Shown here: positions 121 through 4,914 of the stretch, in pieces
Position numbering within the stretch: the stretch's first letter is position 1
Layout of the letters: each line of letters opens with the position of its first letter
Origin: Gemmatimonadota bacterium
Lineage (GTDB): Bacteria; Gemmatimonadota; Gemmatimonadetes; Longimicrobiales; Gaopeijiaceae
Length of the DNA: 32,792 bases
Assembly (NCBI GenBank): GCA_009840215.1
Contig: VXOC01000060.1
Span: 1,376-34,167 of the forward strand
Direction: 5' to 3'
Made by a program: the position numbers and the translations under genes
The notes under the pieces: generated by a model
What the model was told of the DNA's origin: nothing
Databases searched by the model: none
What the model saw: only the letters and a program-made list of their open reading frames with translations

Positions 121-692
121 GCGCGGCCTGCTCGACGGAAGCCCCCGATGCGGTCTTCCCGTCTTCGCCGTCCACCGTCACCTGGACGACTACGGGAAGA
201 TCACAACGGCTCTTCACCGCGCGAAACGCCTGCTCCAGCTCGCCGAGGTCGGAAAAGGTCTCCAGGATGAACCCGTCCACGCCGCCGGCGAGCAGGCCGT
301 CCACCTGGCGGCCGAAGTACTCCCGCGCCTCCTTCAGTGACGTGGGACCCAACGGCTCGACGCGAATCCCCAGCGGGCCGATCGCTCCAGCCACCGCGGC
401 CCGCCCACCCCCCGCCCGAACCGCAATCTCGGCGGCGAGACGGTTCAGCTCTTCGGTGCGTTCTTCAAGCCGGTGCGATGAGAGCTTCACCGGGTTCGCG
501 CCGAAGGTGTTGGTCTCCAATATCTCCGCCCCGGCTCGGACGTACTGCGCGTGAACCTCCCCCACCAGCTCGGGGTGCGTCGCATTGAGTTCGTCGTAGC
601 AGACGTTCACGAACACGCCCCGTTCATACAGCATCGTACCCATGGCCCCGTCCGCCACGAGAACCCGCCCGGCGCCGAGCATCGCTCTCAGG

Positions 693-700
<8 letters not shown>
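1..700 (-). CDS. Homocysteine S-methyltransferase domain protein (partial; possibly fused to methylenetetrahydrofolate reductase)
   Basis: The N-terminal homocysteine-binding barrel is clear. DGAMGTM lies at residues 17-23 from the GTG at 700, followed by the ETNTFGAN motif, AIGPLG and the FILETFSDL strand. The GTG overlaps the metH stop by 8 bases, with a purine-rich GAGAGG upstream inside metH; an ATG at 682 is the alternative start. The gene is therefore downstream of metH in the same operon and probably shares its SAM-responsive leader. Proteins with this start are often bifunctional enzymes with a C-terminal methylenetetrahydrofolate reductase, as in YitJ, which would supply methyl-folate to MetH. 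The window ends before that part and before the zinc ligands, so the fusion is inference. About 190 residues are reliable; the outermost 120 bases look corrupted. Confidence 0.85.
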
Positions 701-4670
<3,970 letters not shown>

Positions 4671-4671
4671 G

Positions 4672-4695
4672 CCTCCTCCGCCGGAGCCCCGGCGG
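4672..4695 (-). promoter_or_regulatory. metH ribosome binding site abutting a 7-bp hairpin
   Basis: On the minus strand CCGCCGG (4695-4689) pairs perfectly with CCGGCGG (4684-4678) across a four-base loop. The last two stem bases are also the first two of the GGAGGAGG ribosome binding site (4679-4672) for GTG 4670. The hairpin could limit ribosome access and act as the expression platform of the upstream SAM-sensing element. The pairing is seen in the sequence; the regulatory role is inferred. Confidence 0.5.
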
Positions 4696-4781
4696 TGCGG
4701 GATCCGGCCCTGCCGGTTCCCACCGGGCGAGAGGTGACGCGTCGCGTCGCGAGAAGGCCGTGCACCGGCGGCCGCGAACGA

Positions 4782-4797
4782 CCCGCATCGCTGCGGG
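4782..4797 (-). promoter_or_regulatory. GNRA-tetraloop hairpin beside the SAM-II-like aptamer
   Basis: On the minus strand CCCGCA (4797-4792) and TGCGGG (4787-4782) form a perfect 6-bp stem capped by GCGA. The stem shares its first base with the 3' end of the riboswitch pseudoknot, so the two could stack or compete. No T-tract follows, so it is not a classical terminator. Confidence 0.5.
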
Positions 4798-4847
4798 TGG
4801 CTTTTTAGCTGTTCCCGGCCGCAATACGCCACAAATCGCCGTGTGAT
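4795..4847 (-). promoter_or_regulatory. SAM-II-like (SAM_alpha) riboswitch in the metH leader
   Basis: On the minus strand the motifs GATTT (4837-4833), GTATTGC (4827-4821) and AGCTAAAAAG (4810-4801) occur in the order and approximate spacing of SAM-II aptamers such as the marine metagenome env12 structure. A short P1 stem is CGGC (4841-4838) with GCCG (4819-4816). The pseudoknot is GTGGC (4832-4828) with GCCAC (4801-4797), five perfect pairs replacing the different bases at this place in env12, which looks like covariation. The class binds S-adenosylmethionine and represses methionine genes, which fits metH just downstream. P1 is shorter than usual and the linker before AGCTAAAAAG is only about five bases and poor in A, so ligand binding is unproven. 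The SAM-V class, which shares a similar core, is the alternative. Confidence 0.75.
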
Positions 4848-4885
4848 CCCTTCGGTCCCGCCATTTGGCAGAGACCTGTGTCCCA

Positions 4886-4914
4886 TTCATAGCAAGGAAC
4901 CCGGCGGGCATCAA
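4886..4914 (-). promoter_or_regulatory. Sigma70-like promoter for metH
   Basis: On the minus strand TTGATG (4914-4909) and TATGAA (4891-4886) are separated by exactly 17 bases. The predicted transcript start near 4878 would place the SAM-II-like aptamer about 30 bases into the RNA and give a leader of about 210 bases before GTG 4670. Confidence 0.6.

Follow-up and report, generated by a model that had tools for sequence, protein, structure and literature searches.

The SAM-II riboswitch class has been described from α-proteobacteria, Bacteroides and a small number of other proteobacteria (PMC1273637; PMC2258182), and in the original report a promoter lies just upstream of the element (PMC1273637). 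The sections of Leyn et al. that deal with this class place it in Rhizobiales and Rhodobacterales only and do not name metH as a target (PMC4239095). The SAM-V class combines a 4-bp P1 with a P3 stem-loop that follows it immediately and with stacked adenines facing P1; P3 is reported to be absent from SAM-II (PMC6061858). Metagenomic sequences include SAM-V elements upstream of metH (PMC2704228). Our literature search found no paper linking SAM-II with Gemmatimon*.

The element described here is located in the leader of metH, on the minus strand of a 32,792-nucleotide stretch of DNA from an uncultured Gemmatimonadota bacterium (hereafter the window). We regard it as a SAM-sensing riboswitch aptamer of the SAM-II fold, with a probability of roughly 0.92, where the identity of the ligand and the OFF logic are inferred. 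The aptamer spans 4841–4797 and carries the letters of the SAM-II binding core, GATTT, TATTGC and GCTAAA. It begins with the P1 5' arm CGGC (4838–4841), followed by GATTT (4833–4837), which by analogy with SAM-II would provide the third strand of the binding-site triplex. The 5' arm of the pseudoknot (P2a), GTGGC (4828–4832), the conserved GTATTGC (4821–4827) and the P1 3' arm GCCG (4816–4819) come next. A 6-nt linker L3 (GGAACA, 4810–4815), at the position occupied by hairpin P3 in sister genera, leads to GCTAAA (4804–4809), the putative ligand-binding strand by the same analogy, and to the 3' arm of the pseudoknot, GCCAC (4797–4801). P1 has 4 bp, and its two arms (4838–4841 and 4819–4816) covary. 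The 5-bp pseudoknot pairs perfectly between 4828–4832 and 4801–4797, with compensatory changes in relatives. All 61 distinct cores share GATTT, TTGC and GCTAAA without variation, although the patterns or model used to collect them favour those letters. The window has a single occurrence of the three-block core pattern, and 100 dinucleotide shuffles gave none; a SAM-II-like core is thus present far above chance. The preliminary description had placed the three motifs and the perfectly pairing arms correctly, and its notion of a compact variant with a short P1 and a short linker agrees with these dimensions.

In a set of 148 related genomes, 91 contain a looser version of the core pattern, compared to about a dozen for the reversed pattern used as a control. 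Among 30 distinct cores, 89.3% of the P1 and pseudoknot cells pair, versus 82.6±1.0 in shuffles (0/500 as high), and six of the nine P1 and pseudoknot pairs vary on both sides; slid controls gave 19–44%. Over a seven-pair structure consisting of four P1 and three inner pseudoknot pairs, pairing reaches 98.4% in the 61 cores, while the outer pseudoknot pairs are frequently broken in sister genera. The arms occur as GTGGC/GCCAC (window), ACGGC/GCCGT, GAAGC with GCT, and GAGGT with ACC. The alignment of metH leaders proposed earlier therefore bears out the suspected covariation, as P1 and the pseudoknot are conserved with compensatory changes across both the genus and the family. The earlier reading was to be given up only in the joint absence of a covariance-model hit and of such conservation in relatives, and it therefore stands. 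Near-identical leaders are present in named genomes, Gemmatimonadetes or Longimicrobiales MAGs, in agreement with the host that had been guessed from the letters.

Every copy found in the window's own genus is directly 5' of metH, as are almost all of the other type-B copies that were checked. Two own-genus genomes (G004 and G011) have a metH without the aptamer. At one of these loci (L210), the conserved start region is retained and the upstream portion is replaced; the leader of the other (L211) contains an inverted repeat, AGCAGCCCGTGGACAA/TTATCCACGGACTGCTAGC. In genome G145, from another family, metH occurs at two loci (L085 and L086); the leader of one is that genome's own type A and the leader of the other matches the window's genus, reflecting either transfer or binning contamination. 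A MAG titled Gammaproteobacteria (Ww582; L108) carries a Gemmatimonadota-type metH leader identical in sequence to L042, and is probably mislabelled.

Conservation of this kind could also arise if the stretch were simply the N-terminal coding part of metH. The metH frame of the window is open from 4886, so the aptamer does lie inside an open frame. However, a stop in the metH frame follows the aptamer in 9 of 22 leaders, and two leaders contain a 1-nt insertion (ATATTTGC) within the conserved core. The conserved block is therefore RNA and not protein; the frame data and indels rule out a coding origin, to which we assign practically no chance.

The variant lies outside existing models. A cmscan of the whole window at gathering thresholds returned tRNA only, and in a permissive local search SAM_alpha (RF00521) was the only family matched, at 15.3 bits (E 0.63) against a cut-off of 36. 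No own-genus genome reaches this cut-off. Thus, we refer to a SAM-II-type variant rather than to a member of RF00521 as modelled, the gathering cut-off being an operational criterion and not a biochemical one. Rfam alone would not support a riboswitch call in the window. Of the two models suggested for scoring in the preliminary description, SAM_alpha did match, but under its cut-off, while SAM_V (RF01826) gave no match in the window or in 59 relatives, nor in the control genomes. SAM-II long loops (RF01726) matched neither the window nor, even at E 10, the P3 forms of sister genera, which likewise had no match to any Rfam SAM family at that level. A covariance model of the variant, built from relatives, gives the window 70.7 bits (E 2.8e-14; next match 7.4 bits), a score that is not independent since the window sequence is among the training rows. 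This model matches 20 of 23 genus genomes and 91 of 121 family genomes; some low-scoring matches in the family correspond to ordinary type-A elements rather than to the metH variant. Because current covariance models miss the variant architecture, the distribution of SAM-II is underestimated.

A promoter-like sequence (4886–4914) lies just upstream of the element, with a −35 element TTGATG (4914–4909), a 17-nt spacer and a −10 element TATGAA (4891–4886). Most of the window's subclade retains TTGAT...TATGAAT, and the other half of the genus has a related TGGAATC...CTATCGTT. Hairpin P0 (GGTCTCTGCC-AAAT-GGCGGGACC, 4854–4876), 5' of the aptamer, is stable genus-wide. Beyond the aptamer, a hairpin (ACCCGCA-GCGA-TGCGGGT, then TCGTTC; 4781–4798) is a candidate U-poor attenuator. 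It shares 2 nt with the pseudoknot arm, and six genomes of the window's subclade retain it, with a pair changed from A-U to G-C. A Shine-Dalgarno-like GGAGGAGG (4672–4679) precedes two possible GTG starts, at 4670 and 4661, the latter of which aligns with the conserved start in relatives. As previously proposed, the downstream gene is metH (693–4661); the encoded B12-dependent methionine synthase has all the expected domains (Pfam S-methyl_trans, Pterin_bind, B12-binding_2, B12-binding and Met_synt_B12). Behind it, the start of a second homocysteine S-methyltransferase-like gene (1–679), whose open frame runs off the window end, is 38% identical over about 200 aa to the N-terminal part of MetH and is likely cotranscribed with metH. 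A 1388-aa open frame antisense to metH (642–4808, plus strand) is most likely explained by high G+C.

Comparison of the aptamers in relatives reveals a graded series of architectures. Ordinary Gemmatimonadota SAM-II elements (type A) have a P1 of 6 bp and a linker of 10–11 nt, and those of type C a P1 of 5 bp and a linker of 9–10 nt. The window's genus has a P1 of 3–4 bp, mostly 3 bp, and a linker of 6–9 nt (5 nt in one close relative). Where sister genera have a 4-bp P1, the loop after it is mostly longer and folds into hairpin P3 (mean MFE z −2.4, n=48 loops), with highly variable stems that are very short (2–3 bp) in one group; between P3 and GCTAAA lies a short tail, for instance GAACNN or AAACNN. 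P3 is absent in the window's genus. P0 is found ∼10 nt 5' of P1 in that genus, where its MFE z averages −2.6 (n=22 leaders). It abuts P1 in all 17 type C leaders (5.7 expected from shuffles), in 23 of the 26 sister type-B leaders tested (8.0 expected) and in 22 of 50 type A leaders (14.1 expected). In a tree of MetH proteins, the compact form constitutes one clade (support 100/99); the tree orders neither the deeper branches nor the gain or loss of P3.

Our proposed mechanism starts with transcription initiating just 5' of the aptamer. The small hairpin P0 would fold first, followed by the very short P1 and the H-type pseudoknot, whose triplex core (GAUUU, UAUUGC and GCUAAA) is predicted to bind S-adenosylmethionine. 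When SAM is plentiful, the pseudoknot would be stabilised and metH expression lowered, probably together with that of the second homocysteine methyltransferase gene. Elsewhere in relatives, SAM-II-like copies are found ahead of metK, a metY-like Cys/Met PLP enzyme, metX-like abhydrolases and an amino-acid kinase; repression by SAM fits this association with genes for methionine and SAM synthesis. The same gene context argues against the aptamer having drifted towards a different ligand, for example S-adenosylhomocysteine or methylthioadenosine, as does the coincidence of the letters invariant in the 61 cores with those of the SAM-II core. Such drift would be compatible with the divergent P1, P2a and L3, but we consider it quite improbable.

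In many sister leaders, a U-tailed terminator starts ∼8 nt after GCTAAA; as it abuts the pseudoknot, the output in these genera is very probably transcription termination. Own-genus leaders have no intrinsic terminator, with the exception of one weak case, and in the window's subclade the hairpin ACCCGC...GCGGGT occupies the terminator position with a tail that is merely pyrimidine-rich. This lack of U-tailed terminators could instead indicate a SAM-II-type riboswitch that acts on metH translation, and a SAM-II element of S. meliloti controls translation 74 nt downstream (PMC9373788). However, predicted access to the Shine-Dalgarno site is the same whether the aptamer is free or blocked, so that sequestration of the ribosome site by simple folding was rejected. 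Translational control is a sizeable possibility that we do not favour; attenuation at hairpin 4798–4781, possibly with Rho, is somewhat more likely in the window than ribosome-binding control. Two pairing schemes were also discarded. Complementarity of the P1 5' arm to the terminator in sister genera, as in an antiterminator, was seen in 42 of 56 cases versus 26 in shuffles, but swapped partners do at least as well (43.7), leaving such an antiterminator unproven. Pairing of the P0 3' arm with sequence after the pseudoknot, recognized by eye, is possible in only part of the genus and is not kept in the window's subclade. Since folding does not hide the ribosome site and covariation does not prove an antiterminator, we infer the final switching step in the window rather than observe it.

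The preliminary description had placed the element outside the classic hosts of SAM-II. This is correct with respect to the literature cited above, as far as the SAM-II sections of Leyn et al. extend, but ordinary SAM_alpha elements score above the Rfam cut-off in 173 of 297 Gemmatimonadota genomes; the phylum alone is therefore no surprise. What is new is the metH-specific variant, with its P1 of 3–4 bp, its P0, and P3 present or absent. It adds metH as a target and a phylum-level home for SAM-II-type control.

Further SAM-II-like elements were encountered during these searches. The divergent type C (GATTTGTAGCGATTGC..CCGGGTTACCAACATGCTAAACCGCT; L034, L039, L043, L044, L069-L073, L076-L078, L092 and L093) has a P0 hairpin and a strong terminator-like hairpin, and precedes metK in L072 (by Pfam) and in L077 and L093 (by signature), a metY-like PLP enzyme in L070 and an abhydrolase in L071. 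None of the type C copies run through Rfam (L034, L039, L043, L069 and L071) reached the cut-off, the best having 35.5 of 36 bits. SAM-II-like elements are also found in Anaeromyxobacter (Myxococcota; L107, L110, L126 and L172), and a PALP-type PLP enzyme lies downstream in L172 as well as in the Gemmatimonadota locus L090. Others are from Comamonadaceae/Limnohabitans and Paucibacter (L097, L098, L104, L115 and L147), in most of which GCTAAAAAGGAG leads directly into a ribosome site; L115 and L147 seemingly have two copies each. Elements with a CGCGG P1 occur in Krumholzibacteriia, a Fibrobacter-labelled MAG and other bacteria (L134, with two copies, L140, L141 and L164).

Among described classes, the element most resembles SAM-II (RF00521). 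It shares with SAM-II the core GAUUU/UUGC/GCUAAA, an H-type pseudoknot with a P2a of about 5 bp, the covarying arrangement of P1 and P2 pseudoknot, a promoter directly before P1, terminators in many relatives and a methionine gene downstream. It departs from SAM-II in its sub-threshold score, the P0 hairpin, the metH target, a P1 of 3–4 bp instead of about 6, and a linker of 6–9 nt instead of 10–11. SAM-II long loops (RF01726) have a SAM-II-like core with a different loop region, but are known from Bacteroidetes and marine samples (PMC2864571). Membership of SAM-V (RF01826) was considered as a rival. The 4-bp P1 of the window and sister genera, together with, in many of the latter, a P3 immediately 3' of P1 and a tail containing A that precedes the next strand, follows the SAM-V plan (PMC6061858), and metH is a reported metagenomic target of SAM-V (PMC2704228). 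On the other hand, P3 is missing in the window's genus, P2a has up to 5 bp (5 bp in the window) rather than 2 bp, and the Shine-Dalgarno site lies outside the pseudoknot, >110 nt downstream. With no Rfam match to either model, both SAM-V and SAM-II long loops were rejected as the identity of the element, and assignment to SAM-V in place of SAM-II is unlikely. We prefer a SAM-II-type aptamer, whose compact form offers a naturally minimal aptamer for biophysics. The graded P1 and linker lengths, in forms that have P3 and forms that lack it, allow the structural relation between SAM-II and SAM-V to be tested. Tentatively, the metH aptamers of this family may bridge SAM-II (core and P2a) and SAM-V (short P1 and P3), the window's genus representing a form that lacks P3 and whose P1 and linker are close to the shortest in the SAM-II-type aptamers compared here; if so, SAM-II and SAM-V would form one continuum.
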